Assembly: GCA_951213105.1 (NCBI GenBank) | Contig: OX578152.1 | Location: forward strand, 103,356,882-103,420,881 | Reading direction: 5' to 3' | Length of the DNA: 64,000 bases | From: Amaurobius ferox | Lineage: Eukaryota > Arthropoda > Arachnida > Araneae > Amaurobiidae | Program-made: the position numbers and the translations under genes | The notes under the pieces: generated by a model | Seen by the model: only the letters and a program-made list of their open reading frames with translations | Database searches by the model: none | What the model was told of the DNA's origin: nothing | In this document: positions 8,528 through 30,475 of the stretch, piece after piece | Layout of the letters: the number at the start of each line of letters is the position of its first letter | Position numbering within the stretch: the first letter of the stretch is position 1

Positions 8528-8890
8528 AAGCGGGACAGCCTAATGGTTAAAACACGGGATTGCACTTGGAGGACCCGAATTCGATTCCCTCTTCTGCAGA
8601 AACTGCCCTTGTGTTCACGCGGAGCAAGGGCGCGTTAAATGTATGGGTTCGAAATTCCTTCCGAGAGGTCGATGGTAGGGGAAGGAGGGTACGGTCCCTC
8701 TTGGTGACACCCCCACTGAGTTCCGGTCTAAATTGGATGGCACTGTCCTGGCCATCCAAACAGATACTTTACACCTTTGTATAGCCGGCCATACAGAAAG
8801 CTACCATTAGCCTATGGGTTGGTCGTGTGGTCTGGGTTTTCTACACCTTTGTATAAGTCGAACGGTCCGGGACAAAAGAAATAAATGCAT
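8528..8890 (+). mobile_element. tRNA-derived SINE with an inserted tail unit
   Basis: The head has a box A-like stretch GCCTAATGGTTAAAAC and a box B-like stretch GAATTCGATTCCC, the pol III internal promoter pattern. The body (ACGGTCCCTCTTGG, TGAGTTCCGGTCTAAATTGG) and tail (ACACCTTTG...GTCGAACGGTC) match the other SINEs here. A 58-bp insertion at 8784-8841 splits the tail. Confidence 0.85.
8784..8841 (+). mobile_element. Tail-only mini-retroposon, copy 1
   Basis: A 58-bp insert sits between two exact copies of TACACCTTTGTATA (8770-8783 and 8842-8855). It begins GCCGGCCATAC and ends GTGTGGTCTGGGTTTTC. GGCCATAC can pair with GTGTGGTC with two wobble pairs. Confidence 0.85.
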
Positions 8891-8979
8891 GCCAATTATT
8901 CGCAAAGAAATTACGGTAAGTAATGTAAATTTAATGCCATAAACATTCTGCCACGGATGTTATACATCATTTTTTTGTT

Positions 8980-9283
8980 TTGAAAGATGCAAAGGGGTTG
9001 TATTATGTAGGGAATGTCATGATCTGGATGCATCAGATGTATTTTCATCGTGATACAGAGAGTGATAATGATTGTGAAACTAAACGTTATATGAAATATG
9101 GATGCATGGAAAATTCGAGTGAAGAATCCAATGGAATTGCATTATGTAGGGAATGTAATGGTCTGGACACATCAGATGTTTTTCCAGCGTGATAATGATT
9201 GTGATCATGATTATAAAACTAAACGTTATATGAAATAAGGATGCATGGAAAAATCGAGTGAAGACTCACACCCCAGTGGGATT
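8980..9283 (+). repeat. Direct repeats of about 140 bp, units 1 and 2
   Basis: Units begin near 8990 and 9130 and carry TTATGTAGGGAATGT, GCATCAGATGT, TGTGAAACTAAACGTTATATG and GGATGCATGGAAAA. A third unit continues at 9633-9755, after the 5S-headed insertion. The open frames here are not recognised proteins. Confidence 0.75.
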
Positions 9284-9560
9284 AGAGCCAACAGCCGTAC
9301 CGCGCTGAAAACACCGGGTCTCGTTAGATCTCCGAAGTCAGGCAGCATTGGGCGCGGTTAATACTTGGGTGGGTGACCACCTGGGAACACCGCGTGCTGT
9401 TGGCACATTTCGGGCGCGGTAGCCCGGTGGTTTGCGCGCTGGAATTGCACGCTGCTTCCGGCCGCTGGATTCGCACGCTGTGGCACTTCCCGGCCGTCCA
9501 AACAGTTACCTTACACCTTTCTGGTAGGTCGGACGGTCTGGGTCTCATCAACAACAACAA
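9284..9560 (+). mobile_element. Composite SINE with 5S rRNA head and tRNA-like segment
   Basis: A full 5S rRNA sequence is followed without a terminator by a tRNA-like box A segment (AGCCCGGTGGTTTGCGCGC), then by the common SINE tail (CCGGCCGTCC...GGACGGTCTGGGTC) and a CAA repeat. CCCCAGTGGGATT occurs just before (9271) and after it (9561), consistent with a 13-bp target duplication. Confidence 0.8.
9287..9405 (+). rRNA. 5S rRNA-like sequence, SINE head or retropseudogene
   Basis: The sequence of about 119 nt runs from GCCAACAGCCGTACC to CGTGCTGTTGGC, so the terminal stem is intact. Landmarks are CACCGGGTCTCGTTAGATC, the pol III box A-like GGCAGCATTGGGCGCGG and the box C-like GGTGGGTGACCACCTGGGAAC. 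This is clear 5S rRNA similarity with full length. No T-run follows and SINE sequence continues, so it probably serves as a SINE promoter rather than making ribosomal RNA. Confidence 0.85.
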
Positions 9561-9632
9561 CCCCAGTGGGATTGTTATCTTACACCTTTCTGATAGGTCG
9601 GACGGCCTGGGTCTCAACAACAACAACAACAA
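9561..9632 (+). repeat. Duplicated SINE tail unit, about 72 bp
   Basis: It repeats the preceding tail (TTACACCTTTCTGATAGGTCGGACGGCCTGGGTCTCAACAACAAC) together with the CCCCAGTGGGATT site. The result is a two-unit tandem array with a 71-72 bp period. Confidence 0.8.
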
Positions 9633-9754
9633 CCCCAGTGGGATTGTATTATGTAGGGAATGTCATGATCTGGACGCATCAGATGTTTTTCACCGCGATA
9701 CTGAGTGTGATAACGGTTGTAAAACTGAACGCTGTATGGAATATGAATGCATGG

Positions 9755-10703
9755 AAAAAAAATCTGATGTGGGCAACACATGACTTTCCTTATATAACGT
9801 AATGAATTTACCACTTTTACAGTAAAATAAATAGGTTTTTCTTATAGTAGATACTAATATTCTTTCCAAGATATTGAATTTTCGACAATTAGTCGGCATT
9901 TCATTGATTTAGCGTCATTTTTATCCATTTGGCGAGATTTTCGTTAATTTGGCAACATTTCAAAAAGTCGCCAAATTGGCGACATTCCGCCAAAATTCGT
10001 CGCCAAAATCTCGCCAAGCATAATGGACAAAGAAATAAGTTATTCTTGCAGCAGATAAATGAATATTGGCGTTCAAATACAAAAGTATTACTCAAAGTAT
10101 CTTTTTTCATGAATGGAACGAGCTAGATCCACGAGAATAATGTCATCCAATATATCGCATGGTATTACTGAAAAGTGAACATGTCTCTCAAGAGGAAATA
10201 TTTTTTTATTTTATATGACTTTCTGATAATTTTTTTGAAAAATGTGCAATATCTCGAGAACGGTTCATGTTAGCGTTCTAAAATTTATGTCAATCGATTT
10301 CTAATAAAAAATTACATAAGAAATGTCTATATGCGTAACTTTATTAGTGGTTTTGATTTTTTGACTATTTTTTCCAAATTTCATTTGAAAATTTAGGGGT
10401 GTTCTTAACATTCGATTGTGTATAAAAACATTAGGCTTCCAGTGTTTACGGATTGTGATTTTTGTACCAAATTTGGATCGAATCGGTCCATTCGTTTGTC
10501 AGTTATCGTCTTCACAGACTCTCACACATACACACACACACACATACTTTCACACACACACACACACACACACAGACATCACTTCAAAAATGTTTGATTC
10601 GTGATCAGGGAGGCTTGAAACGTGCTCTCCCGTCGAAAACTCGATTTCGAATTTTCGACCCCGTCACAATACTTTCCTTATACATTATGTATATAAGGAA
10701 AGT
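9755..10703 (-). mobile_element. B-family element, complete, array unit 1
   Basis: It runs from the inverted 3' hairpin (AATCTGATGTGGGCAACACATG) to the 5' hairpin (TTTCCTTATACATTATGTATATAAGGAAAGT). Between them are the GTCGCCAA-type palindrome block, AATATCTCGAGAACGG, and an AC microsatellite. Confidence 0.85.
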
Positions 10704-11570
10704 AATAGGATTTTCTTATAGTAGATACAAATATTCTTTCCAAGATATTGAATTTTCGACAATTAGTCGTCATTTTCATTGATTTAGCATCATTTTTATC
10801 CATTTGGCGAGATTTTCATTAATTTGGCAACATTTCAAAAAAGTCGCCAAGTTGGCGACATTCCGCCAAATTCGTCGCCAAAATCTCGCCAAGAGTTATG
10901 GACTAAGAAAAAAGTTATTCTTACAGCAGATAAATGACTATTGGCGTTCTAATACAAAAGTATTATTCAAAGTTCATTTTTTCATGAATGGAACGAGCTA
11001 GATCCACGAGAATGATGTCACTCAATTTATCGCATGGTATTACATATGAAAAGTGAACATGTTTCTCAATAGGAATTTTTTTTTTTTTATGTGACTTTTT
11101 TATAATTTTTTTGAAAAATGTACAATATCTCGAGAACGGTTCACGTTAGCGTTCTAAAATTTATGCCAATCGTTTTCTAATGAAAAATTACATAAGAAAT
11201 GTCTATTTGCGTAACTTTATTAGCGGTTTTGATTTTTTAACGATTTTTGCAAAATTTCATTCGATAATTTAGGGAGGATTGTGAACATTCGATCACGTAT
11301 AAAAACAATAGGCTTCCAGTGTTTACGGATTGTGATTTTTGTACCAAATTTGGTTCGAATCGGTCCATTCGTTCGTCAGTTATCGTCTCCACAGACTCAC
11401 TGACACACACACATACTTTCACACACACACACACACACACAGACATCACTTCAAAAATGTTTGATTCGTGATCAGGGATGCTTGAAACGTGCTCTCCCGT
11501 CGAAAACTCGAATTCGAATTTTCGACCCCGTCACAATACTTTCCTTATACATTATGTATATAAGGAAAGT
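10704..11570 (-). mobile_element. B-family element, array unit 2, 3' end missing
   Basis: It begins abruptly within the family sequence (AATAGGATTTTCTTATAG) directly after the hairpin of unit 1. It lacks about 85 bp of the 3' end and is otherwise complete up to its own hairpin. Confidence 0.8.
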
Positions 11571-12363
11571 AATTAAGTGCAGACTCACGCTCTGCCCAAA
11601 ATAATGTGACCAAAAGTCATGTTCCAAACGACAACACATTACGGCAAAGCAGAGAATAATTCTGTGTGACTCGCATTGTGCTGATACGATTATGAATAAA
11701 TATGACCAACGAGAGAGAGAGAGAGAGAGGGATGAGATCCGCTCTTTCTAATTGCATCCCCATGGAAACCATGGATGATGTGGGACAACCGGAATGTTTC
11801 CCGAAACTTGGCAAACAAAGCAGGAGGGAAAAGTTTGTATTACTTATCCCTCTCGTGATATGTTTTGTGTTTCAATTTCGAGGGTTTTTTGTACAAGAGA
11901 GAGATTGAAAAGTACTATTTGCTTAGGCAATTGAAAATTTGCCACTTTTTACTTTCTCCACAATACATAGTAATGGGAAAGAGAATTATTGCAATAGAAT
12001 CGAACATTCAAATTTGATTTTGACGGGGAAAATGTGGGTAGTAGGGGTATCCGTTTGGAATTGGAGCCTTACAACTGAGCGTAAACATTTTGGACGCTTA
12101 CATATTCGAACATAATAGATAATTAAAATGGAGTGTGACTCACCTCAACTTCCTCATACCAAATTTATTTTTTTCAAATTTTTCCTTGAAAAATTTGAAT
12201 AATCGGTATCTTGGATCCAAATGATTACAAATATAGCGTGTTATCATTCACTTTAAAGGGCTTGAAAAAATCTTTCAATTGATTCCATACTTGACAATGT
12301 ACTCCCCGGGGGGTAACTTGCCCCCCCCCCCCACTCCACAAGGGAGGTTAATGACGTCGCAAA
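11571..12363. other. Low-repeat spacer
   Basis: Contains a GA microsatellite at 11710-11730, a mixed-composition stretch 11730-11910 without a recognised protein, a decayed A-type terminus near 11950 (ACTTTCTCCACAATACATAG), and a C-run near 12320. Confidence 0.4.
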
Positions 12364-13165
12364 CAAAAAAAATCTGATGTGGGCAACACATGACTTTCCT
12401 TATATAATGTAATGAATTTGCTACTTTTACAGTAAAAAATAGGATTTTCTAGTAGTAGATACTAATATTCTTTCCAAGATATTGAATTTTCGACAATTAG
12501 TCGTCATTTTCATTGATTTAGCGTCATTTTTATCCATTTGGCGAGATTTTCGTTAATTTGGCAACATTTCAAAAAGTCGCCAAGTTGGCGACATTCCGCC
12601 AAATTCGTCGCCAAAATCTCACCAAGCGTTATGCACTAAGAAATAAGTTTTTCTTAAAGCAGATAAATGACTATTGGCGTTCAAATACAAAGGTATTATT
12701 CAAAGTATCTTTTTTCAAGAATGGAACGAGCTAGATCCACGAGAAGGATTACACTCAATTTATCGCATGGTATTACATATGAAAAGTAAACATGTTTCTC
12801 AATAGGAAATATTTTTCTTATTATTTTATATGACTTTTTGATAATTTTTTTAAAAAATGTACAATATCTCGAGAACGGTTCACGTTAGCGTTCTAAAATT
12901 TATGTCAATCGTTTTCTAATGAAAAATTACATAAGAAATGTCTATTTGCGTAACTTTATTAGTGGTTTTAATTTTTTGACGATTTTTTCAAAATTTCATT
13001 CGAAAATTTAGGGGGGTTCTGAACATTCGATTGCGTATAAAAACAATAGGCTTCCAGTGTTTACGGATTGTGATTTTTGTACCAAATTTGGTTCGAATCG
13101 GTCCATTCGTTCGTCAGTTATCGTCTCCACAGACTCACTGACACACACACACACATACACACATA

Positions 13166-13221
<56 letters not shown>

Positions 13222-13346
13222 TCACTTCAAAAATGTTTGATTCGTGATCAGGGATGCTTGAAACGTGCTCTCCCGTCGAAAACTCGAATTCGAATTTTCG
13301 ACCCCGTCACAATACTTTCCTTATACATTATGTATATAAGGAAAGT
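12364..13346 (-). mobile_element. B-family element, complete
   Basis: All family blocks are present in order, including the perfect palindrome GTCGCCAAGTTGGCGAC at 12576-12592. A long AC microsatellite occupies about 13138-13217. Confidence 0.85.
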
Positions 13347-13992
13347 AAAAACATTGTATGGCAGCTATTTTTCACAAAATGATGATTGTAACTATTAACC
13401 TTTTGCTTTCAGGTAGGACAGCGTCATCCCAAACGAAGAACCTCCCCAAAAGACAGGTATTTGATATAGCCTATCTCAAACAGATCTAAACCCCCCTTTG
13501 CAGGCATTGGCGTATATGGACGCTAATGCCTGCAAAAAGGGAATCGAGCTGCTTGAGATAGGCTATGTCAAATACCTGTCTTTTGGGAAGGTTCTTCGTT
13601 TGGAATTGACGCTATCCCACCCGGAAGCAAAAGGTTAAGCCTCGTGATCTTGAGCTACAAATAAACCTTCTGCTGCATGATATATCAAATTTTGTCCTAT
13701 ACTGCTATGTTAAAAAATACATAAAATTTAGAATGAAATTAAACGTTTCCGCTCGGATTTAAAAAAAAAAGTATCTAGTTTTAGATTTTTCGATGACAAA
13801 GCCGATTATAAAGTTTCGTGAAAATCCATTAATATTTGTGGCTGCTATTGTGTACACATCAAATCGGTCACGACATCACTCCAAAAATAATCAAAACATG
13901 TTCAGAATGTCACAAAACATATATTAGCATTAAAATCTCAAAATCGAAAATTTTCGGGAAGAAACAGCACTGTTTCACTACTACGTATGAGA
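13347..13992 (-). mobile_element. C-family element with nested piggyBac MITE
   Basis: It shares scattered blocks with 44880-45353: ATCAAATTTTGTCCTATACTGC, TTCGTGAAAATCCATTAATA, AATCAAAACATGTTCAG, and an end TATGAGAAA..TAAAAATG. It starts exactly where the upstream B element ends, as the A and B tandem copies do. Confidence 0.6.
13399..13634. mobile_element. piggyBac-like palindromic MITE, 236 bp
   Basis: TTAA lies on both sides (13395-13398 and 13635-13638). Ends CCTTTTGCTTYC are inverted. The two arms pair along almost their full length, for example GACAGGTATTTGA with TCAAATACCTGTC. TTAA duplication with CC-start termini is the piggyBac hallmark. No frame is present. Confidence 0.85.
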
Positions 13993-14159
13993 AAATAAAA
14001 ATGCCAACAATGCATATTTGCTTTATCAGAATCATAGAATGGAAATATAAAAATATTTTAATATTTCGAACTGTTTCTGTTTGAAAAAAAAATGAAACTT
14101 TTTATCTGAGCGAGTTTTCGCTTCACTTTGTTTACATTCACTCAAAATATCTTTTAAAC

Positions 14160-14310
14160 CAGGGATGATCAGATTACGGTCGGCGGGCCAAATACGGCCC
14201 GCCAATGTATTCGACACGGCCCACACAATAAACTTGGAATTTTCCTGAAAGCCTCACCAAAATAGATGCTTCTGAACTTTGCAAATCATGGCCAAAAGTA
14301 TATGGCAAAA
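14160..14310 (+). mobile_element. hAT-like 5' end fragment
   Basis: It starts CAGGGATGATCAGATTACGG and continues with GGCGGGCCAAATACGGCCCGCC, the pattern of hAT (Charlie-like) termini. No matching 3' end is seen nearby. Confidence 0.5.
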
Positions 14311-14319
14311 GATTTTTTT

Positions 14320-14535
14320 TTTTCGAATCAGACCGTCCGACCTACCTGAACATGTAAGGTATCTGGTTGGTTTATAAGGAATCGGCCGGGAGTACCACCC
14401 AATTCTGACAGGAATCCAGTGGAGGTGACATCCACAGGAACCGTACACTCCTTCCCTTGCCACCAACATACCGGAAGGACTTTCGGACCCACAGATTTAA
14501 CGTGACCATACTAGGCGTAAACACCAGGATATCAC
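14320..14535 (-). mobile_element. SINE, partial
   Basis: Inverted SINE sequence with tail CAGACCGTCCGACCTACC and body ACCCAATTCTGACAGGAA, CATCCACAGGAACCGTAC and TTCGGACCCACAGATTTAACG. The tRNA head is missing or decayed. Confidence 0.75.
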
Positions 14536-14805
14536 TAGGATACTTTATTATACCTACCGACACCTAACTATGATTCCCAAAGTATTATGGCATTTTCAAG
14601 CATTTCATCCAAAGGAGTTCTAACTCCTTTCTAACTCAATGGTATAGTCTGTTTTTGAAATTATGTTGCTATGTGTAATATCTCAGAGGGAAACTTCTAT
14701 TTTCAATTTCATTAAAGATAACTTTAAAGAATTCATTTAAAAAAAAAGAGAAAGTTCGTTTAAGATTTAATTTTGCATTTATTATTTGCTCCTAACATTT
14801 ATATT

Positions 14806-15764
14806 ACTTTCCTTATATACATAATGTATAAGGAAAGTATTGTGACGGGGTCGAAAATTCGAATTCGAGTTTTCGACGGGAGAGCACGTTTCAAGCATCC
14901 CTGATCACGAATCAAACATTTTTGAAGAGATGTCTGTGTGTGTGCGTGTGTGTGTGTGTGTGAAAGTATGTGTGTGTGTGTGTGTGTCAGTGAGTGAGTC
15001 TATGGAGACGATAACTGACGAACGAATGGACCGATTCGAATCAAATTTGGTACAAAAATCACAATCCGTAAACACTGGAAGCCTATTGTTTTTATTCGCA
15101 ATCGAATGTTCAGAACCCCCCTAAATTTTCGAATGACATTTTGAAAAAATCGTTAAAAAATCAAGACCAGTAATAAAGTTACGCAAATAGACATTTCTTA
15201 TGTAATTTTTTATTAGAAAACGATTGACATAAATTTTAGAACGCTAACATGAACCGTTCTCGAGATATTGCACATTTTTCAAAAAAATTATCAAAATGTC
15301 ATATAAAATAAAAAAAATATATTTCCTATTGAGAAACATGTTCACTTTTCATATGTAATACCATGCGATAAATTGAGTGACATCATTCTCGCGGGTCTAG
15401 CTCGTTCCATTCATAAAAAAAGATACTTTGAATAATACTTTTGTATTTGAACGCCAATAGTCATTTATCTGCTGTAAGAATAACTTATTTCTTAGTGCAT
15501 AACGCTTGACGAGATTTTGACGACGAATTTGGCGGAATGTCGCTAACTTGGCGACTTTTTTTAAATGTTGCCAAATTAACGAAAATCTCGCCAAATGGAA
15601 ATATGACGCTAAATCAATGAAAATGACGACTCATTGTCGAAAATTCAATATCTTGGAAAGAATATTAATATCTACTATAAGAAAAACCCATTTTTTTACT
15701 GTAAAAGTATAAAATTCATTACATTATATAAGGAAAGTCATGTGTTGCCCACATCAGATTTTTT
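14806..15764 (+). mobile_element. B-family element, complete
   Basis: The 5' hairpin TTTCCTTATATACATAATGTATAAGGAAA is followed by GTGACGGGGTCG, a TG microsatellite, the CTCGAGATATTGC block, GGCGA-rich blocks and the 3' hairpin ATGTGTTGCCCACAT. The minisequence at 15530-15550 has lost the perfect palindrome. Confidence 0.85.
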
Positions 15765-16089
15765 AATTTGTATTTGTTATCCAGGTTGACGCGGTTTGCA
15801 TTATTGAAAATTTTTTAAATGTTATTTAAAAGCAATTATATTTAGCGAAATGAATATTAATGCCCTTTTATAAACTCTTTTTGCTTAAAATTACCCGCTT
15901 AAAATTATCGTAAGATAAAATCCTTTCTTAGTGCTCATCTATACTGTAAACAGAACATTCCAGCTAAATTTCAAATTTCAAACGTCAGCAGTTTCAGAGA
16001 TTCGTTGATAAGCCAGTCGGTTACTCAAAGTTTCAGTTTTATGTAAGAAGAGTGGTAAAATGAATGTGAAAACTCATTATATAAATTTT
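15765..16089. other. Spacer, nothing recognised
   Basis: AT-rich sequence without repeats seen elsewhere in the window. Confidence 0.35.
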
Positions 16090-16985
16090 GGTTTCCCTGC
16101 AATACATGGTAATATATAGGGAAAGTATCAGAATCGAACCGAAAATCGCAACTCGGGTTTACGACGGATCTATATGTTTCGAACACTCTAGAACCCGAAA
16201 AAATATTTTTAACGTGATGTCTGCGTGTCTATCTATGTAATGTATGTATCCACTCTCACACAAAATTTAATTTACCAAATTTGATAAAATTTTACACGTA
16301 AATCACTTGTCGGCCACTCAAATTGCTGCTCGTGCCCTAGAGCGAGTCGGGTAGTCTGGGTTTTCGACGTAAATCACTTGTGGGTTCCCCTGTTGCTGAT
16401 TAGATTTTGGTACAATTCGGAATAAAGAACATTTTTTTTGTTGTTGTTGTTGTTTTCTTTCAAAAATCGTATGTATCTTCTCTAGCTAAATACTAATTAA
16501 CCACATTTTGTGAAATTTGGTAAATATGCCACTTGTAACTTACCCTGATGTTGATTAGATTTTAGTACGATTTGGGAAAAAGAACCTGCCGTTTTTCGCT
16601 AAATAGTCCACAAAAATCGCTAAAATCTAAAATACTAAAATGAAAGACTACTTATGCTTAAATGTGTCATAATATTTGACTATGAACTAAATAATATTTG
16701 ACTAATACCGACGAAAAGAATAACACCGACTTCATCACTCTTGGACTAGCCGTTCTCGAGATATTTTAGTTTTTTCGCATTTTTGCTAAGCCACCTTCAA
16801 AAATACGTCCTGTTACCAAATGAAAACTAAAATTAAATAAAAAGAGCAAATGCAGTGCAATTTCGAATAATTATGCGTGTTGTTCTGTGCAATTAAACTC
16901 AATTTAATGAATTATTAAAGAAATAAAGAGAAAATGGATTTGAGTCTGAAGAGAAAGTCATATACTGCTAACGTCAAATTGGTTT
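16090..16985 (+). mobile_element. A-family element, complete
   Basis: The 5' hairpin (TTTCCCTGCAATACATGG...AGGGAAAGT), TCTAGAACCCG, two AAATCACTTGT modules, TCTCGAGATATTTTAG and a decayed 3' end (GAAAGTCATATACTGC) are in family order. The mini-retroposon copy 2 lies inside it. Confidence 0.75.
16311..16366 (+). mobile_element. Tail-only mini-retroposon, copy 2
   Basis: A 56-bp insert lies between exact 15-bp copies of ACGTAAATCACTTGT (16296-16310 and 16367-16381). It begins CGGCCACTC and ends GGGTAGTCTGGGTTTTCG. GGCCACTC pairs with GGGTAGTC with one mismatch. Confidence 0.85.
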
Positions 16986-17503
16986 CACTCTGATTCTGAT
17001 ACAAACAGATAAACGTAAGAAGAACGAATAAGAATTCTTGATAGAGTCGAGTTGAGAGGTACACTCGTATATTTTTCAGTCCAGCAAGCAAGCAAATTTT
17101 TACGAATCTTACGCAGCGTCAGCTCATTACTGGATAATATTTTGGGACTGTGACAACTAATTACTGTAAAACTCCGAATAATTCGCTGTTTCTTGTATCG
17201 TGTTGTAGTGTGTCATGAATAATAAGCAGCTATGAATGGCATTAGCTGCGCTCTTTTCAGATTTTGTTGCCATGGGGACCATTTCAGGGAAGTATAAATC
17301 CTCGGTTGTATCTCGACAGAGAAAGCGGAAGCGGTAAAACAAACTATTTATCCCCTTGATGTGCCTGTCCTCTTTCTATTTAAATTTCGAGTTTCTTTGC
17401 AGATGATGTGAAGACCTTTAAAACAGACCGTAACGGTATTACGGTACTTTGTGACAGTCATTTACTTTCCTTGTAGTCAATATAACAACTTTTTGACATG
17501 TTT
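16986..17503. other. Spacer of mixed composition, no gene assigned
   Basis: A short frame on the minus strand (17157-17342) has a balanced composition but no recognised domain. An extra ACTTTCC start at 17464 precedes the next A element. Confidence 0.35.
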
Positions 17504-18193
17504 ACTTTCCCTACATGGTAATGTATAGGGAAAGTATTGGAATCGTGTCGAAAATCGCAACGAGAGTTTTCGACGAATCTACACGTTTTGGGACCTCTAG
17601 AACACGATAAAAATATTTTTAGCGTGACGTTTGTGTGTGTGTGTCTGTGTGTGTGTATGTATGTATGTGTGTGTGTGTGTATGTGTGTGTATGTGTGTGT
17701 GTGTATGCGTGTGTATGTGTGTGCAATGTATGTATTAACTCTAACTGAAAGAATACTTGACAAAATTTCATAAAATTTTATATGTAAATCAGTTCTTTAT
17801 GGGCCACCCTGGTGCTAATTAGAATTTGGTACGATTCAGGGAAAAAGAACCTGCTTTTTTTGCGAAATGGCCTGCAAAAATCGTCAAAAGTCTATATACG
17901 CTCAAATGTGTCAGTTAAATGCAAGTTGTCAATTAAATGAATGTCATCATTCTAGGAGTAACCATTCTGATGATATTTTAGGGGTTTTTTTTTTGCTACG
18001 GCGCTTTTTAAATACATCTAGTTACCAAATGAATGCGAAATTTGAATTAAAAGTGCAAATTCAGTGCAATTTCAAATAATTATGCATGTTATTTTGTACA
18101 ATTAAACTCAATTTAATATATTGTGAAAGAAATAAAGGGAAAATAAATTTAAGTGGTCGAGATAGTCATGTAGTGCCCACATCCGATTTTTTT
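17504..18193 (+). mobile_element. A-family element
   Basis: Hairpin TTTCCCTACATGGTAATGTATAGGGAAAG, long mixed TG/TATG microsatellite, family modules and the 3' hairpin ATGTAGTGCCCACAT followed by CCGATTTTTT. Confidence 0.8.
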
Positions 18194-18729: not shown

Positions 18730-19205
18730 CACCTTCCAGTGTTCTGAAATTCTTTAATTTCTATCGGGTGCCCGGATTGTAAATGTAATTTACCTCAAAG
18801 TATAAAATCAATATTCGCTTCAAAATTTGTTGCAAAAATTATTTTATTAAAAATTTTAGATTTTTTTCTGGTAGAGGAATTTTGAATTACAACGACGTAA
18901 AATATGATAACCCCGCCCATCGTTGACAAAATACAAAACCCTTAGGATTTAAGTGAAGCGATTTAGTTTTATTACAGTGAAACAACTTAGTATTACAAAA
19001 TTACTCTTTATCTGGTGATTTGGGGCATTTTAATTGACACCAACTGGCCAAATTTAAGAAATAAAGACGAAATTATCTTGAACATTGTTTATGCTAGATT
19101 GCTGTGAAGGGGGGGTTCATTTATTTTGGTAATCACACACACACACACATACTGACACACAGACAACTCCTTTTATCACTTTCTCATATTTTAGAATATA
19201 GTATA

Positions 19206-20863: not shown

Positions 20864-21179
20864 TAGAGAAAATATTGTTTTGAGTTTTGCAGTTTAAAAT
20901 AAAGGGTAACATGCCAATAATTGTGATTATTTGGACCAACAATACAGATTTTTAAATGTTTTTCTTGAAAATTTTGCAAAAAAAAAAAAAACTCATTATA
21001 AATGAATTAATTCTGCTATGAGAAATTAGAGTTCAGACACACTCTAGTTAATTACATAAAATGTAGATTTATCAACCACTATTCAAATAAAAAATTTTTG
21101 CATTAAAAAATATCCAAAGCATGAAAATCTGACAAAAACTCCTATAACATTTTGACCTCATTACACTGTTATCCCCAAT

Positions 21180-21600
21180 GCATTCCCGTGCATTACAGAG
21201 AAAATAAAAGCAATGTTAAATATAAAAAACTTTGAAATTACATAAAGTAAAAGGAGGAAAAAAGCAGCTCATATTTCACAAATAAATAAAGAGCATTAGT
21301 TAAAGTAATTCTGATGGATCAGCCAGCTGCGCTTCGCAAGACATTTTTCTTGGAGAATAGAAAATAGAAATTGATTCTTTAAAAATCGTTATCAACATGA
21401 AAAAAACTGCAGTAATTCTAAACTACACTTTTTCTTTTCCACTTTGTTGCTTATTTTTTTATTTAATTTTCGAGTTTGAAAGCAAATGTCTTTTAAAAGT
21501 GACGGAGTAAATTTTTTGATAATAGAGGTTACAGTTTTAATTTTTTTTCATTTTCTATCTTAAGTATTTTGGCGATTTCGGTGTTAAAGGTAACCAGTGT
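21180..21600 (+). repeat. H-family repeat, copy 1
   Basis: Shares GATGGATCAGYCAGCTGCGCTT, GATTCTTTA, a TTTCTTTTCCACTTTGTTGC block and TTTATTTAATTTCSA with copies near 23390, 27290, 31870 and 36190. The family identity is unknown. Confidence 0.6.
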
Positions 21601-21683
21601 TAAAAGAAAGATATTAAATATTACTTAGTTGGGTGTTTCTCGTCGTCTGCTTCCAGGAGGACTATAGTTATAACTGTGTTTTT

Positions 21684-22085
21684 ACTTTCCCAGCAATACA
21701 TGGTAATGTATAGGGAAAGTATTGGAATCATCTTGAAAATCGCAACTTGAGTTTTCGCCGGATCTACACATTTGGGTACTTCTACAACACGAAAAAACCA
21801 TTTTTAGCGTGTCGTCTGTGTGTGTGTCTGTCTGTGCTATGTATGTATCAACTCTAACTCAAAAACTAATTGACCAAATTGCATGATATTTTTTTAGGTA
21901 AGCCACTTACCTGTTACCCTAGTACTGGTTAGATTTTAGTGCAATTCGGGATACAAGAACCTGCCTTTTTTACGAAATGGCCCGCAAAAATCGTCAAAAT
22001 ATACAATAAAATACTACGTATGCACAAATGTATTAATTAAATATTTGTTTTATACGTAATTTTTAACGTTGAAAATAATTTTTAT
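21684..22085 (+). mobile_element. A-family element, 3' truncated
   Basis: The hairpin TTTCCCAGCAATACATGG..AGGGAAAGT and the first half of the family end within the GTTTTATACGTAATTTTTAACG block. Confidence 0.75.
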
Positions 22086-22727
22086 TTTCTCTACTATATG
22101 TACATAATGGTGTATAGAATGGTGTATGGAATGTGTTACTTGAATGAGGTCAAGAATTGTAAATGAAACCGGAATTCACTTCGAATTCTAAAATTCCGAG
22201 CACACACGTGTCTACGTCACAACGCTGCACTTTTTAAAAACGCTTAACTTGCAATAGCTTTGTTGCAGTAAATCCCGATCACTTATACATCCCCTGTCCC
22301 CTTTCATACATTAAGTCGTGATGAAACCCGTTTGAAAAGGAGAAATAGAAAACTCTCTTCAAACGTCCAAAGTCGAAAAATAGTGGTCCGCTACTCTACT
22401 ATGAGATATTTTGCAAATGCATTAGAAGTTTAGCTGTAAATTGAATTAAAATTGTGTAAGGATTAACAATTTCTATTCTCGACTTCTTATTTATCAAGCA
22501 GTATCTTCCTCGGGGAAAGAAGAGTCAAAATTTTAATAACAGCCGCGCTGATTGCGGACAGTAGAGGGTGCTGGCAACCAGCTTATAAAAGGACGAACTG
22601 TAAAGCACGAGAAGATTCAAGATGGTAGAAGATGATACGAGTGGTACGTGGAACGTGGCGGGTGTGTATGCGGAAATGCGGCGGGTGTGAATGATAGGAA
22701 AGGTGAACAGTGTACATTCTGACTGCC
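22086..22727 (+). promoter_or_regulatory. Possible solo LTR or promoter region
   Basis: This stretch is less AT-rich than its surroundings and has a TATA-like CTTATAAAAGGACG at about 22584. About 35 bp later comes AAGATGGTAGAAGATG with a 22-codon frame. Two A-family fragments flank it. A long terminal repeat of a retrotransposon or a host promoter would both fit. No LTR boundaries could be fixed. Confidence 0.3.
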
Positions 22728-23103
22728 ACTTGTGGGCGAATCTGGTGCTGATTAGTTTTGGGTACGATTCAGGATAAAAGAACCCGCCTTTTTTTGCGAA
22801 ATGGCCCGCAAAAATTGCCTGTATCCACTCTAGCTGAAAAACTCATGGCCCAAATTTCACAAAATTCGCTTGTGGGTCATCCTGGTACTGATTAGATTTT
22901 GGTACGATTCGGAAAAACATAACCTGCCCTTTTTTTGCGAAATGGCCCGCAAAAATCGTCAAAATCTAAAATAAAAACTACGTATGCTGAAATATATCCA
23001 TTAAATGTTTGTTTTATACGCACTTTTTATCAAAGAAAGAAATAAGATCAACCCCATTACACTAGGACTAGCCGTTCTCGAGATATTTTAGTTCAGGGAA
23101 AGT
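22728..23103 (+). mobile_element. A-family element, middle fragment
   Basis: Two modules containing CTGATTAG..TTGGTACGATTC and GCGAAATGGCCCGCAAAAAT, followed by CCGTTCTCGAGATATTTTAG. Both termini are lost. Confidence 0.75.
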
Positions 23104-23329
23104 CTGCAACTCGATAAAATTCTCAAAGTAGTTTGGTATTTTCAACTCTGGCTTTTTATCCATAAGTTTTGTCTCCTTTACTCTATTTGTAGTTTTTTTT
23201 TTATATTTGTGATATACAATAGTATGGGTAAGAAAGTAAAAATGTAAAATAGAGTAAAAATGTAAGAAAGTAGAAATGTAAAATAGAAAATAGAAAACTG
23301 AAAATGTTCTTAAATAGGAAATACAAAAC

Positions 23330-23700
23330 TTTTACCGAAATTAAAATAAGTAGAATGAAAATAAAAACATCGTTTCTCCAATATCTCGCAAAAAATTAAA
23401 TTGCATCAGTTAAAGTGAATCTAATGGATTAGTCAGATATGCTTTGTCTGAAAAGCAGAAAAAGAACTGAAAAGAAAAAAGTTGATTCTTTACGAAACTC
23501 TAAATGCAAATCATAAAAAAAAAAATGACGATGATTCCAAACTGATTTTTCGTTCTCCTCCTTGCTGTTTCTCTTTCATTTATATTTAATTTCCATAGTT
23601 GAGAACAAAATTCCTTCAAAGTAATTGTTTAAATTTGAGATTATACTTCCCAGCTTCGAAGACTTTTTTCTTTTATCTTTTAACAGTTTTGATAAAAAAA
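23330..23700 (+). repeat. H-family repeat, copy 2
   Basis: Carries CTAATGGATTAGTCAGATATGC, TTGATTCTTTACG and CCTTGCTGTTTCTC blocks in the order of the other H copies. Confidence 0.55.
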
Positions 23701-23734
23701 AGGATACAGCCTGTCAAAAAGCGATAACAATAGA

Positions 23735-24195
23735 GCTATAGAAATATCCAGGGATATTGTAAAGCATACAGTAATATAATATGCAGTAATAAATAAAATA
23801 TACAGTAATAAAAATATACACTAATAAAATATACAGTAATATATAAAATATAAATAGCGCTACAGAAATATACAGGGATACTGTAAAATATACAGTAATA
23901 AAATATACAGTAATAAAAATATGCAGTGAAAAAAATATATAGTAATAAAATATACAGTAATAAATAAAATATACAGTAATAAAAATATACAGTAATAAAA
24001 TATACAGTAATATGTAAAATATATAATAATAAACAAAGCTTGCAATAATAAAAATATATGGCAATAAAATATATAGTAATAAATAAAATATACAGTAATA
24101 AAAATATGCAACAATAAAATATACAGTAATAAATAAAATATACAGTAATAGAAAAATATAGTAATAAAATATAGTAATAAAATATACAGTATGTA
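23735..24195 (+). repeat. AT-rich minisatellite, TACAGTAATAAAATA
   Basis: More than 25 variants of a 15-19 bp unit with ATATACAGTAATAAA. The long minus-strand frames here (YYCIFYYCIF-like) are translations of the array. Confidence 0.9.
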
Positions 24196-25311
24196 AAATT
24201 TTATTTTAAAAGATACTGTAAAATATGCAGAGATTCTAGAAATGTCCGTCAGCACCACAAAAACTTTGTAAGGAAAATTTTATGAGAATACATATCAAGT
24301 CTATCTATAATAAAGTGGCCGTGTCCGATCAAATGAAAAAGATCGCAGCGCCTATAACGGAGAATGTAAAAAGTTACGACAGCAAAGCAAAATAGCGAAA
24401 AAAGCCAATCACAAAGTTGTAGAGTTGTCTAGTGAGTAAAACTGGACATCAGGAACGAAAGAAACGCGTGTATGAAAGGCAATGAATATCAGAATTCTAT
24501 CAGAAAGTCGTATCATCGGTACCTGTAATACGATGACATCTGCAATAATTATCAAAAGAGGTATTAATATTTTTTTCCGAATTCAAATATGCATTGTTGC
24601 TGAAGAGGGACATATTGAAAAGGCTGTGCATTTGATTTCAGTGCATATATATTCTGTTATTTTTGCAGTCCTGAATGTGTCAGTCATTCACCAACAACCC
24701 TATTGTAGCAAATAAATTCCTTCTGTAACAGTTTTATAGTCGGTTCCTATGCATTCAACAATGCCCTACCACTTTATAATTGGCATTTACTGTCTATTTC
24801 GATATATTGCTGACTTTGTTATCCTAATTCTTTAGTTATCCGTTACGGGGTCACTTTACTATAAATAGACCCAAAGTGAACACTCATGGGCCTTTCCTTA
24901 CAAAGTTATTGGTGTGCTAATGGATTTTTCTAGAAACCTTCCATGTACCCAGTTGTCTTGGGATAAAGATGTATATCTTCCCTGTGCATAAAAAGTAATT
25001 TCAATTGTTCTTTAGACTAAAGAACGTTTCCTTGTTCAATAAAGAATTTATGCTCACAGAACATACCTAAACGGAGCATGCCCAAATATAGGATCACACA
25101 TTGCAGTTTGCAGCATCTGTGGCACAGTTTTATGTTTTATACGAAAGCATGATAATAGATTACATGTGTCTCTCTGAAACAAAGCCTGGAAATTCTGAAG
25201 TAAGTAAGAGGCCTAGAAACAACCAGGCAATCCATACAATTACACACAATATCGCCGAGTGTTAAATAAATTTGACCCTGCAGGATTTGCAGTCTGCTTA
25301 TGCTTAATCTG
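24196..25311. other. Low-repeat spacer
   Basis: No strong similarity to other parts of the window and no recognised protein. A 77-codon frame at 24482-24715 lacks a known domain. This is one of the larger stretches free of the A/B superfamily. Confidence 0.4.
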
Positions 25312-26411
25312 CATTGTGTCCATAATTAGAGTGGATGTGTTTAAAGCCCGATAGTGAGAAAACTGTTGGGTCAAATTCAACCAAATTTGCAGTAAATACT
25401 ATTTAGACCATAGGATTTTGATTTTTAAAAGAAAAAAGTTCGGATTTTTGCCACCGCGGGTCAAAGCGGTGCTGTAAGGTCTATTTTTGGAGTAAAATAG
25501 GCATAGGATGCACAGAAAGTTAACATTTAACATGCATTTTGAAAAAGTCAGCACATTTACATTTTATACGTATTTAGCACATTTTGTATTTACATTTGCA
25601 TCTGACATTTATATGCGTACGATATTAATTTCTATATATTGGCATCATTTACATGATTCAATGTAAAACATTAATGATGATTCAATGATGATTACATGAT
25701 GGTTAATGAGGATTACATTCATCGATGATTAATGATGATTACATGATTCAATGTAAAAGGATGGCATCATTTACATGATTCAATGTGTGATTCAATATGT
25801 TTTCCTTGCATATGTTCCAAAAGTGCATTCTCTGAACAGCATTCTCTACTGCAAAATGTAGCATATCTCCATTGATTTGCTTGACGTGTAATGTTATTCT
25901 TTCCTTCAAAGTGGCTAAATTAACCACATTCCCTTGGTATACCAAGCGCTTTACATGACCCAACAATCAAAAGTCACAAGGGGTCAGATCAGGTGAACTA
26001 GCTGGCCACTTCATAGGAAACGCTCGACTAATTAATTATTTGGTTGTTGGTAAAATGCTGTCGTAGGACTTCTTATACGCGTAATCCAATATGAGAGGGT
26101 GCTCCATCCTGCATAAATATCGTAGGTTCAAGACATTCACGCTGTTGAAATTGCGGAATAACAAAGTTCAGCAGCATTGTTCGATACCTCTCAGCATTGG
26201 CGGAACTTTCTGTACTTCCTATGCCTATTTTACTCCAAAAATGGACCTTATAGCGCCACTTTGGCCCGAGGTGGCAAAAATCCGGACTATTTTTTTAACT
26301 CAAAACCCCATGGTCTAAATTGTATTTTTAAGTAGCAAATTTGGTTGAGTTTGGCCCAACAATTTTCTCACTATCGGGCTCTAAACACCTCTACTATAAT
26401 TATGGCCACCC
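25312..26411 (-). mobile_element. Mariner-superfamily deletion derivative
   Basis: Outer arms of about 220 bp are inverted: GCCCGATAGTGAGAAAACTG (left) answers CAATTTTCTCACTATCGGGC (right). The right end reads GGCCACCCTG next to TA; the left end is more decayed. A transposase C-terminal remnant lies between the arms on the minus strand. Short ATGATTACATGAT-type repeats sit at 25640-25760. Confidence 0.75.
25742..26205 (-). pseudogene. Transposase C-terminal half, mariner-superfamily
   Basis: Reading from 26205 downwards, one frame gives AERYRTMLLNFVIPQF, then FMQDGAPSHIG with the second catalytic Asp. Further on come FPMKWPASSPDLTPCDF, the region of the third catalytic residue, and LGHVKRLVYQGN. 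The last 72 codons (25748-25966) are open. A few stops interrupt the middle, and the DNA-binding N-terminal half and first catalytic Asp are gone. In the intact family this is a nuclear DNA-cutting transposase. The same WPxxSPDLTPCDF signature occurs in the MITE at 7712-8225, but the terminal repeats differ. Confidence 0.8.
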
Positions 26412-26890
26412 TGTATATAAATAAAATTAAAAATCTATCTGTTTATTTATGTAGTATTGAGTTTACCTCACCATTTATGTGTTCGGCTACACCAAATTTG
26501 TAGGTAGCCTTGGAATAGACCCACTTGAAATTTAATCCATGTTTCGAGTTTCCAGAACCAGGGGTTGTTTATATATTAATAAAAAATGCACAATTAAATC
26601 TTCCATCTATAGATACAGCATTAAGTAGACGATATTTTTTTCGTAAATTTATTTGAAGAAAATAATATCATTTTGCTAAGCAACGGAATTAAATACAATG
26701 AGATTATAAAGTAAAGGTTTAAAGGTTAAGGGGATAATTAATATTCTCAATTCCTAAATTATATTTTTTATTTTGACAAATATTTTTCAAACTGATATAT
26801 TGTGTTTAGCCAATTATTGTAATAGAATACGAAGATGGTACGTGTGTATCTTCTAATACCATGTTAGAACTTTTATTTTAACAAATATTA
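26405..26890 (-). mobile_element. D-family repeat, copy 2
   Basis: Inverted relative of 6850-7711. It begins with ATAAATAAAATTAAAAATC and CTATCTGTTTATTTATG, has TTGCTAAGCAACGGAATTAAAT in the middle, and TATTGTGTTTAGCCAAT then GTATCTTCTAATACCATG at the end. Confidence 0.55.
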
Positions 26891-27279
26891 ACTAATTTAA
26901 TTTCATATTTTTTTTAATTTCTTTACAAATGGGACGTGGATGTTTTTCATTCAGATTTGCCTGTGAATATAAATTTGTATAGCAAAAATAGGGACTCTTG
27001 TACTTCTTTAAGAAAATTAAATTAAATATTTTAATACAATGTTTTGAATAACATTGTCATTTAGAATACTATAGGAATGTGCACATGATTGTGAATTTTA
27101 AGTTTCTTAAATGTTTATCACTATCAATGATTTCATCGGGGATTACAAAATCTCTGCACATTTAAAATGCCCTTCCTGACAGTGCAATTAGCAACTCTTC
27201 TGCGCTGATGAGGCAACACTGTTTGAAGCCAATTCACTGAATCAGATTTCAGCAATGGCAGCGCGATTCCATGCAGTTG
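26891..27279. other. Spacer, nothing recognised
   Basis: AT-rich sequence, then about 100 bp of more balanced composition without a recognised frame. Confidence 0.35.
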
Positions 27280-27560
27280 TTGAATTAAATCTAACAGATT
27301 CCCCACCTGCGCTTTGTTCGTAAAACATAAAAAAAAATCGTTCCTTCAAATGCATTAAACACAAATCAACCTGATAAAATGGGGGAGATACGAAACTAAT
27401 TTTTTTCCTTCCTTTACTTTTTTCTGTTTCTTTATCGTTTTTATTTAATTTCCATGCTTAAGAGAACGAGTTTTTATGTGATTGGATAGATTGAGATAAA
27501 ATATCGAAGCCAGGACTTCTTTCATTCACGTTTAATAATTTGATGAGTTTATCAAAAGAG
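27280..27560 (+). repeat. H-family repeat, copy 3
   Basis: CTAACAGATTCCCCACCTGCGC, TTTTTATTTAATTTCCATG and neighbouring blocks match the other H copies. Confidence 0.5.
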
Positions 27561-27619
27561 AGTTAACTGGTGAAAACGAAGACATTAAATACGACTTATT
27601 TCGTACCGATTTTCAAATG

Positions 27620-27715
27620 GATATGTGATTGAAGAATTATACGTGATTGAAGAACGATATGTGATTGAAGAATAATACGTGATTGAAGAACGATATATGA
27701 TTGAAGAATGATATG
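27620..27715 (+). repeat. 22-23 bp minisatellite, GTGATTGAAGAA
   Basis: About five units of GTGATTGAAGAAYRATAYGT. Confidence 0.85.
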
Positions 27716-28099
27716 TTTCCACTCTCGGAACAAAAGTGGCGCGCATTAATAATGCGGTGATAATAAATCACTATTGAATGTTCATGCGCACTAAATGTGG
27801 TGAAATTAATTAATGTCAATATTTAAATTTTAAATTATATATCCGCGCATAACTGCTTACATTGCACGTGTACGCATATAACCCTCTAAATTTACCTTAA
27901 CAGTTCAAGTCAGGTAACCGCATCTGAGAAATAAAACATGGGTCATTAATGACGAAGTTTATTTTTAAATTATATTGTGATACAGTGTTCTTAAAAGATG
28001 TTTACAGGTTTTTGATAGTAAATAACAAGACAACAAGAAGACACGAGACTAAAACAAGAAAGAGACAAACTTTATAATATGGACGGATAATAATTTATG

Positions 28100-28790
28100 A
28101 TTACGGCGATAATTTCTGACATCACGTCACGTGACACTCAGTCGACTCTGCGGGCTATAAGAGATTCTCCAACAGAAGTCTGCCAGGCCTCTCACAGATG
28201 CCTGTGAGCCAATGGGCAAGCAGATGCCTGAGAGCCAATGGACAGTCAGGGAGGAGCTAGCAAATAAGCCCCGTGCGACAGATGAAAGGATAAGAAAATT
28301 ATTTACGTTCAATTACGTTATGGAGACAGGGTTGTGAGAAGTTGATCAGTCAATATGAAATTGGTGATACGTTTGTGACTGTAAAATATGTTTAAAAATA
28401 AAACTACAGATCCCAAAAGGGACGTTGAAACCTACGAATAAGCGTCGAATGATGTGCTTAAAAGAGCGAAGGTAAAACTGTTTATTATTATATATGAGGA
28501 GGTATTGTAGATCTGGCTCTAAGTCTTAAAAAGAACATGTATCACACGAACCGCCTTCTAGCAGAATACTCTGTTAATTAGTAATAGCGATCGATAATCT
28601 TTACAATGTCGAATGTTAATTGTGGATTTAATGATATGAATATTTAAACATAAATAATGATTAGAATAAAAATTAAATTTGTATAAAAGGATGTCTCTTC
28701 GTTATTAAATATTTCATTGAATGTATGTTAATCAATTTTACTTTCAGTATAATCGGACGACACACAATGGTGGGTTTTGCAACATAACCA
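28100..28790. other. GC-richer block, possible solo LTR
   Basis: Contains CACGTCACGTGACAC, a CTATAAGAG word, two CAGATGCCTG..GAGCCAATGG units spaced about 30 bp apart (CCAAT motifs), and several AATAAAA words downstream. Promoter-like motifs plus polyadenylation signals fit a retroviral-type LTR. No duplicated ends or gag/pol frames were found. Confidence 0.3.
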
Positions 28791-29225
28791 GTGTACTAGT
28801 TTTCGGCCACAACAAGTAAGCAAAATAAAATTACGTCACATATATATTTATTTATGTAGCACCAAATTATTAAGAATATATTTTCAGCTTAACACTTTGT
28901 ACAAATAACCATTAACCACCCTCTTTTCACTGGTTACCTGAATTAAATATTGCATATTGGGTTTCACAAATAATTTCTATGAGAACTACTCAAAAATATT
29001 CGCAGTTTCATAATATTTATAAAAAAACTGATGTGGGCAGTACATGAATTTTTCTACATAATGCGAAATAATAGTTTAAGATTCACGCACAATGTTTTTG
29101 GAATTAAATTAATACCAAGTAAATGCAAATTTGGCGCTTTTAGCTCAACTTATTAATCCAGACTAAATTATTTCTTTATACTCCCCTGCCAAATACTTAT
29201 CAAAATGCAATTGACATTCAATTGC
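28791..29225. other. Spacer with superfamily 3' end relic
   Basis: ACTGATGTGGGCAGTACATG at about 29027-29046 is a relic of the A/B inverted 3' end. The rest is AT-rich and unassigned. Confidence 0.4.
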
Positions 29226-29376
29226 TACCCCATTCTTTCGATAGGTTAGGGGAAGGTACAGTCCCTGTGGATGCCGCCCCCACTGGTTTCCGCTCTAAAT
29301 TGGGTGGAACTTCCCAACCGACCAAACATATACCTTACACTTTCGAGTAGATGGGAAAGTCTGGATCGAAGAAAAA
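29226..29376 (+). mobile_element. SINE, 5' truncated
   Basis: Body and tail of the SINE family (CGATAGGTTAGGGGAAGG, GGATGCCGCCCCCACTG, ACCTTACACTTTCGAGTAG) ending in a GAA-rich tail. The tRNA head is absent. Confidence 0.8.
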
Positions 29377-29390
29377 GAATTATTATCCCG

Positions 29391-29670
29391 TGGGTCAACC
29401 CAGTGGTTAGCGCATGGGATTGCACTTAGACGTCCCTAGTTCGATTCCAGGCTCTGCACAAAAGCAAACTGCCTCCGTGTTCACGCAAAATACGGGCACG
29501 TTAAATAAATATGTCCATAAGTTATTTCGACAGGTTAGTGGTAAGGACAGGATGGTACGGTCCCTGTGGATGCCGCCCCCACTGAGTTCCGGTCGAAATT
29601 GGGTGGCACTTCCGTCCGTCTAAACAGATACCTTACACCTTTGAGTAAGTCGAGCGGTCTAGGTCGAAGA
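29391..29670 (+). mobile_element. tRNA-derived SINE, full length
   Basis: Box A-like AACCCAGTGGTTAGCGCATGG and box B-like TAGTTCGATTCC form the tRNA head. Body motifs ACGGTCCCTGTGGATGC and CCACTGAGTTCCGGTCG follow, then the tail ACCTTACACCTTTGAGTAAG and a GAA tail. AGAATTATTATCCCG before and AGAATTACTATCCCG after suggest a 15-bp target duplication with one change. It sits directly behind another SINE. Confidence 0.9.
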
Positions 29671-30010
29671 AGAATTACTATCCCGTTTACAATCATTTTT
29701 AAATTATGTATATTACTTCCATATTAAATCATTTTCTTATTGCATTTGCAATTACTTTGGCGATATTGACCACTTTAAATTTTTTTGTCATCATACTAAA
29801 AACTTTCCTTTATCTAAACCATCTCCTAATCAGTAATTGTGATTTTTAAGTATTTGTAAAAATAAAAAGTCTATCCACAAAATTAAAAATTGTATTGTTG
29901 CAAAAAAGATTCGTGACGGTATTAACTAATTTACTGGTTTATGAATTTCCTGGTCATTTATTTCTCTTCTGATCAATAGAACATGGGTTAAATTTTTACA
30001 TTGTTCGCCT
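29671..30010. other. AT-rich spacer
   Basis: No gene or repeat assigned. Confidence 0.35.
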
Positions 30011-30475
30011 TTTTGTTTGTATATTTTTGTTTTCTCTTTTTTAAATATTTTCATTTCCTTCGACTGTTTGAAACCTTTCATTCAAAACTATTTTTCTACA
30101 TTGTAAAACTATTTTTCTACATTGTGTATAATTTCTCCCGGCCACACATTAAACTGCCGTAAGCCCTAGGGTTGGCTGTGTGGTCTGGGCCTTCGACATT
30201 GTGTATAATTTTATTTATTTGTATATTTTCGTTTTCTCTTTCTGTTTGAAATATTTTCATTTCTTTCGACTGTTTGAAAACTTTCATTCAAAACTATTTT
30301 TTAGATCGTGTATAATTTTATTTATTTGTATTATTTTTGTATTCATTCATATTTTGTATGTCTATGTATATTTCCCATGTATGCCTATGCGTTGTTTATA
30401 TTGCTCTTTTTCCCGATCGTGCCTTGTAACTGTTCACATTCTTTATGTGAGCCAGGGAAATAAATAAATAAATTG
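30011..30475 (+). repeat. Local duplication and LINE-like 3' tail
   Basis: A segment with TTTCATTTCCTTCGACTGTTTG and TTTCATTCAAAACTATTTTT occurs twice about 200 bp apart. The region ends GAGCCAGGG then AAATAAATAAATAAA, an AAAT tail as found at LINE 3' ends. The mini-retroposon copy 3 separates the two units. Confidence 0.5.
30135..30195 (+). mobile_element. Tail-only mini-retroposon, copy 3
   Basis: A 61-bp insert lies between exact 16-bp copies of ACATTGTGTATAATTT (30119-30134 and 30196-30211). It begins CTCCCGGCCACACATT and ends GTGTGGTCTGGGCCTTCG. GGCCACACA pairs with TGTGTGGTC over 9 bp with one wobble. Confidence 0.85.

Follow-up and report, generated by a model that had tools for sequence, protein, structure and literature searches.

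The window, i.e., the whole 64,000-nt stretch of Amaurobius ferox DNA that was analyzed, holds three tail-only hairpin inserts. Insert 1 (8784..8841, + strand) is a putative retroposon of 58 nt with the AGAAAGC loop variant. Its 14-bp target duplication, TACACCTTTGTATA, lies at 8770..8783 and 8842..8855 (+ strand), with the 5' copy within a SINE tail loop. The host site of insert 1 is the hairpin loop in the tail of another SINE. Insert 2 (16311..16366, + strand) is 56 nt long, has the CACTC/GGGTAG stem variant with one mismatch (C-A), and is flanked by the 15-bp duplication ACGTAAATCACTTGT at 16296..16310 and 16367..16381 (+ strand). Insert 3 (30135..30195, + strand) is 61 nt long with three extra 5' nucleotides and is flanked by the 16-bp duplication ACATTGTGTATAATTT at 30119..30134 and 30196..30211 (+ strand). 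The three inserts of the original prediction, each with an exact duplication of 14, 15, or 16 bp, were confirmed. In a chance control, exact flanking repeats of at least 14 bp were found at 26 of 4000 random 58-bp gaps of the window with an offset of at most 4 nt, while 6 nt was permitted for the three inserts. The boundaries that had been proposed as common to all three did not hold. Instead of a shared CCGGCC, the starts are GCCGGCC, CGGCC, and CTCCCGGCC, and the ends differ too, i.e., insert 3 ends with GGGCCTTCG and insert 2 has AGTCTGGG.

Some SINEs of the window end with this hairpin too: a 5S-headed one (hairpin at 9490..9548, + strand; 5S match at 9287-9405), one with the hairpin at 29612..29669 (+ strand), and one within an (AC)n tract (hairpin at 39837..39895, - strand). 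The Rfam matches in the window were one 5S and one tRNA, and nothing else. The inserts had been described as aligning to the end of the SINE tail. The same hairpin does end the SINEs, but the units form several lineages of their own and are not simply the tail of that element.

The stem had been predicted as a covarying one, and the covarying pairs were found, but its length had been given too short: the 5' CCGG also pairs with CTGG, and one U is bulged. In a hand-picked alignment of 24 tails (A2), 90.4% of the cells were paired against 80.6% after shuffling, double-change cells numbered 56 against 20.5, and the covariation score was 0.434 against 0.226 (reached in 0/500 shuffles), with the slid model giving at most 0.099. 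When the SINE-attached tails were left out (A5, 19 tails, also picked by hand), 92.3% were paired, double-change cells were 40 against 14.5, and the score was 0.436 against 0.219. Counted by pairs that show any double change, the tails did not exceed the shuffles, i.e., 8 against 7.1 (204/500) in the 24 tails and 6 against 5.4 (238/500) in the 19 tails. The excess of covariation over shuffles is borne out in both sets by most measures, the pair count being the exception. Folding energy alone was unremarkable over eight tails (z-scores -0.18 to -2.05), and for insert 2 and L065:2609-2667 the model structure differed from the lowest-energy fold.

Genome-wide counts were made for the type of insert 1, inserts 2 and 3 being other variants. 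Its exact 21-nt 3' end occurs at 2,554 sites in the 3.56-Gb genome (reversed-pattern control, 0), and a wider 3' end with the AC target behind it is present at 40,153 sites (control, 2); the genome count of GGTCTGGGTYTTC covers occurrences with an AC flank. Copies were sampled by their 3' end, so the samples are blind to 3'-truncated copies. Among 40 copies picked only by the 3' 21-mer, 25 begin at the first base of the hairpin with 0-4 extra nucleotides, and the other 15 are nine distinct copies truncated within the hairpin, five LINE-attached copies, and one duplicate. A script assigned 21 full-length, 8 truncated, and 4 LINE-attached copies, and the remainder was classed by eye (6 of the 34 tail-only copies). 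With 25 of 34 distinct tail-only copies sharing it, the hairpin-base start has a chance of 2.6e-32 under uniform starts, or 2.4e-16 with a five-position bin. The predicted fixed 5' start was thus found as a preference for the hairpin base, but not as an exact one, i.e., about a quarter of the copies are 5'-truncated, and 0-8 extra 5' nucleotides occur in the wider sample. The eight of L150 end with TTC. L119 retains four nucleotides, GTTC, from the upstream sequence of the LINE described below, and therefore some copies do derive from LINE RNA.

Target duplications recur across the genome in several copy samples. At loci of the insert 1 variant (232 candidates, 40 scored, 28 read), exact duplications of at least 12 nt were present at 27/28, the window's own locus included. 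The query of that search held the flank TACACCTTTG, so the duplications of this set were kept out of the target motif. From the 3'-21-mer sample, 28 of the 40 copies were used for duplications; five LINE-attached copies, one truncated LINE-like copy (L123), one duplicate (L127), and five copies without an exact duplication were set aside. Fourteen of the 28 exact duplications are 14 bp long, the range is 11-16, and 26 start with AC. A further set for starts and duplications combined 20 genome copies with 15 hand-picked tail-only census rows, of which 27 passed. Random starts, a lack of further duplications, and a lack of covariation excess had been named in advance as outcomes that would speak against the prediction, and none of them was observed.

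The 3' ends of resident LINEs had been proposed for comparison, and a LINE (L091) with an identical type of 3' hairpin was found. It encodes endonuclease (EN), reverse transcriptase (RT), and RNase H. Among named sequences, its best matches (38-40% identity) come from Araneus ventricosus and carry an R1 annotation, Waldo-named matches were obtained too, and its EN part matches the TRAS1 EN (1wdu, E 1.3e-6). Judged by the annotation of these matches and by the TRAS1 match, the LINE appears to be R1-like. Its 3' hairpin fits the earlier suggestion that a partner LINE reverse transcriptase may recognize this structure. Waldo elements have an ACA-type target. Ancestral-type R1 makes 14-bp duplications, and its 5' junctions are described in the cited account as precise, with microhomology, or with extra nucleotides (PMC2718515). 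The inserts resemble the R1-clade LINEs (R1, TRAS, and Waldo) in these duplications and junction types, and the EN and RT of L091 are related to theirs. In contrast, the inserts encode nothing, and a LINE of the L091 type is likely their helper.

The AGAAAGC loop variant was present in 51/100 tails of one pattern among the matches listed and in 0/100 LINE-attached tails among the matches listed (100 of 221; Fisher 1.5e-19). Common in the former and absent from the latter, this variant gives the impression of a young lineage of its own. Its copies diverge by 1.4% from the consensus. In 42 copies (length exactly 57 nt, at most 6 mismatches, loci L024-L051 and L071-L090), the mean was 0.81 mismatches per 57 nt, and 17 equaled the consensus exactly. 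The lineage has its own shared variants, i.e., at position 30, and at position 8 in the window's copy, L044, and L047.

In four loci that bear the tail (L025, L067, L091, and L054), Rfam gave no family match at E up to 1. The full-length units start at the hairpin, and no SINE head (tRNA, 5S, or 7SL) with an internal pol III promoter was recognized in these loci. They likewise gave no match for a 5' self-cleaving ribozyme of the R2 type, and, lacking a match, a known self-cleaving ribozyme was dropped from consideration. The inserts do share with SINEs the 3' end common with a LINE and target duplications of variable length, often 10-20 bp, and with SIDEs, the short elements of Drosophila discussed below, the R1/R2-type 3' end and 14-bp duplications. 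In viral contigs, 23 pattern matches varied in base composition and context and were read as chance; a second pattern gave 0 matches.

The inserts are best read as a SINE-like parasite reduced to the hairpin that a LINE would recognize, with its RNA presumably excised at the stem base. We put at roughly 0.7 the probability that they are non-autonomous retroposons of which a single RNA hairpin is left, about 57 nt long and corresponding to the 3'-end element of an R1-like LINE. The ORF2 protein of the LINE would bind the hairpin RNA, which terminates in GGGUYUUC plus about one nucleotide. At sites with AC(A) in the top strand, the endonuclease would nick the bottom strand, and the RT would copy the hairpin from its 3' end by target-primed reverse transcription. 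A top-strand cut about 14 nt further would yield the 14-bp duplication. Since no promoter was recognized and the usual 5' end is the stem base, we infer that longer transcripts are the source of the template, which would be cut from them or trimmed down, either by nucleases halted by the stem or bound protein or by specific cleavage.

The same hairpin terminates both LINE and SINE, so the inserts could merely be 5'-truncated copies of an R1-like LINE or SINE, with the RT often ending at the hairpin base and dead tails piling up. The nine of 34 copies cut at scattered points, together with L119 and L150, fit this, but we consider it unlikely. One start is common to the other 25, rather than the scattered 5' ends and LINE-like sequence of 5'-truncated LINEs, and the AGAAAGC lineage is absent from the listed LINE-attached tails and carries its own shared variants. 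Moreover, the RT passes the stem before it reaches the 5' base, and therefore the stem itself offers no reason to halt there.

A precise 5' end, few source sequences, and a nearly uniform young variant would also be explained by an independent small-RNA gene that is driven by a promoter upstream of the 57 nt and whose retropseudogenes were spread by the LINE. This is improbable, as the covarying lineages are many and not one, and the four loci lack an Rfam match. A start at U/C would also be unusual for transcription. Least credible is an element with hairpin ends that moves at the DNA level, of foldback or MITE-like type. The hairpin-forming sequence, preferred ends, and near-fixed duplication length suit it, but in the samples, picked by their 3' end, truncated copies keep intact duplications, the identical 3' end lies on an RT-encoding LINE, and duplication lengths range from 11 to 16.

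Under the preferred reading, i.e., a hairpin retroposon served by an R1-like LINE, the closest known systems include SINEs with a stringent-type LINE 3' tail, e.g., eel UnaSINE/UnaL2 and plant L1 SINEs. They are likewise short and non-autonomous and share with the LINE a 3' hairpin with compensatory changes (PMC3747384). In contrast, the inserts have no small-RNA head or recognized pol III promoter, and the tail is the entire element. The SIDEs, R2 and R2/R1 hybrid short elements of Drosophila, are reported in the cited account to borrow R2 or R1 machinery via their 3' sequence, to be excised from co-transcripts and not transcribed by pol III, and, in the R1-type ones, to have 14-bp duplications (PMC3414825). 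The inserts resemble them in these points, although excision from co-transcripts is a predicted step for the inserts. However, SIDEs have a 5' R2 ribozyme and sit in 28S genes by that account, whereas the inserts have no recognized ribozyme and are dispersed at AC sites.

The hairpin has apparently spread through the genome as its own mobile unit, probably with a copying enzyme supplied by a related LINE. If so, it would bring down the size limit for retroposons and suggest that a LINE-recognized hairpin alone suffices for a mobile lineage, and its very many natural copies would reveal what such a reverse transcriptase requires. Whether the inserts form a promoterless, self-perpetuating class of retroposon stands at even odds in our judgment. 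In such a class, the 57-nt hairpin would be the LINE recognition element only and could be copied from any surrounding transcript, because the stem or bound LINE protein would protect just that fragment. It would reinsert at AC sites, including sites within or next to other copies, and arrays could build up in this way. A possible origin of SINEs is also suggested, in which a bare mobile tail came first and a promoter head was gained later. Units so small are easily overlooked by repeat annotation.

A further loop variant, ATCTTGC, occurs in 22 of 100 tails listed, and 11/22 are LINE-attached by exact pattern. As half of these listed tails are LINE-attached, this variant may be mostly LINE.

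Three short tail-only inserts, at 8784-8841, 16311-16366 and 30135-30195 (inserts 1, 2 and 3), had been described as carrying target duplications, and this was borne out, with exact duplications of 14, 15 and 16 bp. As a control, 58-bp gaps were placed at random in the window, and 26 of 4000 had flanking repeats of at least 14 bp. A direct-repeat scan independent of the inserts also recovered the three, in a list with many rows of microsatellites and tandem repeats. Insert 1 is placed within the tail loop of another SINE.

The genome (276 contigs, 3,564,777,782 bases; the window lies on contig C21) was searched with insert 1 and its flanks, giving 232 candidates. Forty hits were scored and 28 loci (L024-L051) examined, including the window's own copy. 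All 28 had the insert 1 variant and 27 had an exact duplication of at least 12 nt, the exception, L045, adjoining a T run; because the query contained the flank TACACCTTTG, the target sequences in this set are biased.

Exact matches to the final 21 nt of the insert 1 type numbered 2,554 in the genome (reversed control, 0). The first 40 positions listed, every one on contig C1, were taken as a sample, which is blind to copies whose tail is shorter than 21 nt. A script sorted them into 21 full-length, 8 truncated and 4 LINE copies, leaving 7 others that were then assigned by eye to full-length (L114, L116, L122, L130), truncated (L072, L123) and LINE (L125). Script and eye together gave 25 full-length and 5 LINE-attached copies and 9 distinct truncated ones, plus L127 as a duplicate of L126. 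The fixed start of the original prediction, as opposed to random 5' truncation, held in this sample, 25 of the 34 distinct tail-only copies being full-length. Under a crude model with starts uniform over 37 positions, the probability of at least 25 of 34 at one start is 2.6e-32, or 2.4e-16 with a five-position bin. In one copy, L119, the 5' end is extended by GTTC, four nt that match the LINE.

The wider pattern GGTCTGGGTYTTCNAC, to which inserts 2 and 3 are not exact matches, occurred 40,153 times (control, 2), LINE ends included. By eye, its first 20 positions comprised 9 distinct full-length copies, each with a duplication and 0-8 additional 5' nt; 3 truncated and 3 LINE-attached tails; 2 on another body; 2 unclear cases; and 1 duplicate. 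In L141 and L147, the hairpin sits on another body with a common sequence like GTTGGC..YCGCTAACTC, which is a further LINE or SINE family using the same tail. Two pairs on C1, L126/L127 (approximately 15 kb apart) and L145/L146 (approximately 19 kb), have identical flanks; they are segmental duplications, and each pair was entered once in the counts.

The hairpin was modeled with 17 pairs, i.e., CCGG/CTGG, a bulged U, six further stem pairs, and two inner stems, one of 4 pairs and one of 3. The predicted stem covariation held by most measures: it holds without SINE-attached tails, and all four Watson-Crick pairs are used at column pairs 9-46 and 23-40 of the tail alignment, but the number of double-change pairs was not above shuffles in either set. 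Folding energies of single tail sequences were unremarkable. A covariance model was run over 254 kb, made up of the window plus 19 of 20 random 10-kb stretches. At an E cutoff of 1 it picked up 44 tails, 18 of them with the SINE body. Extrapolated from the 34 in 190 random kb, the genome would hold very roughly 600,000 tails, counting every kind.

The hairpin was also found at LINE ends, and AATAAAGTTC stood 5' of 3 of the first 20 copies in the 21-mer sample. In L091, a locus of the likely partner LINE, one frame encodes 548 aa with a Cys/His-rich end and had no Pfam match; another (809 aa) has EN and RT, and RNase H lies in a further frame. At the 3' end of L091 stand the hairpin, GGGTTTTC, and then AACACTC-like sequence. 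AACAC followed the hairpin's TTTTC or CTCTC in 18 of 20 further LINE ends; L093 has AACCC, and in L110 a tail-only insert with the duplication ACACACTTAGCTGC interrupts the LINE's own hairpin. Among 8000 candidates scored, the best named relatives of L091 were from the spider Araneus ventricosus, annotated R1, at 38-40% identity, and the best match overall was unnamed (56%).

LINE-attached tails of one pattern occurred 221 times in the genome. Among 100 listed of the 2,785 tails matching CCGGCCACACANNNNGCTACCATWAGCC, 51 had the AGAAAGC loop and 22 the ATCTTGC loop, counted by eye. Half of the latter (11/22) were also in the listed LINE-attached tails, whereas AGAAAGC was absent from the 100 listed of those 221 (51/100 versus 0/100, Fisher 1.5e-19), and this variant looks like a lineage of its own. 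Over 42 copies, mean divergence from the consensus was 1.4%, and 17 were identical to it. L044 and L047 carry the same stem variant as the window's copy, a pattern that would follow if new copies arise from tail-only ones.

Among 28 insertions flanked by exact duplications, the duplicated stretch was 11-16 bp long (14 bp in 14), AC stood at its start in 26 and T was its final base in 17; A (64%) and C (61%) predominated at the two positions just before. Pairing of a single base at the 5' junction is no more than a suggestion, because T preceded CCGG/CTGG in 13 of 14 full-length copies in the first 20 of the 21-mer sample (5.3e-6 at T frequency 0.33) but, by eye, in 7 of 11 in the second 20. 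The AC target survives insertion. At 20 places, an insert 1-type 3' end was followed by another hairpin start one duplication later (control, 0; 0.007 expected under random placement), and some of these could come from local duplication. In a set of 27 insertions, seven begin immediately 3' of another tail or SINE, and three hairpin copies stand at a 73-bp period at C1:14731505-14731678. The tandem array at 52600-53440 (-), with units of approximately 71 bp, each with an AAC-rich linker and the hairpin tail's 3' half (…CTGGGCGGTCTGGGTAATAACAATATAAC…), perhaps grew from stacked insertions.

In its mode of spread, the hairpin unit resembles a LINE-dependent retroposon that moves by target-primed reverse transcription with R1-type cleavage, a reading in which we infer the origin of the hairpin RNA. 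It differs from a SINE in the usual sense in that it lacks a promoter head. Among the open-access papers found in a search for very short SINEs or retroposons and related subjects, none described such an element, judging by the title and the opening of the abstract.

Other features were found in the window. The 5S rRNA head of the SINE at 9270-9620 is well preserved (9287-9405, Rfam 93.8 bits), and partial repeats of this SINE's tail stand between ACCCCAGTGGGATT repeats. A 115-aa open frame at 42304-42651 (+) was judged by eye to be like the N-terminal region of a mariner-type transposase. A long repeat whose several copies are 65-96% alike and adjoin TG/AC microsatellites was found in both orientations at 10.2-13.4, 14.8-15.6, 35-37.3, 40.0-40.8, 48.0-48.8 and 58.5-61.5 kb.
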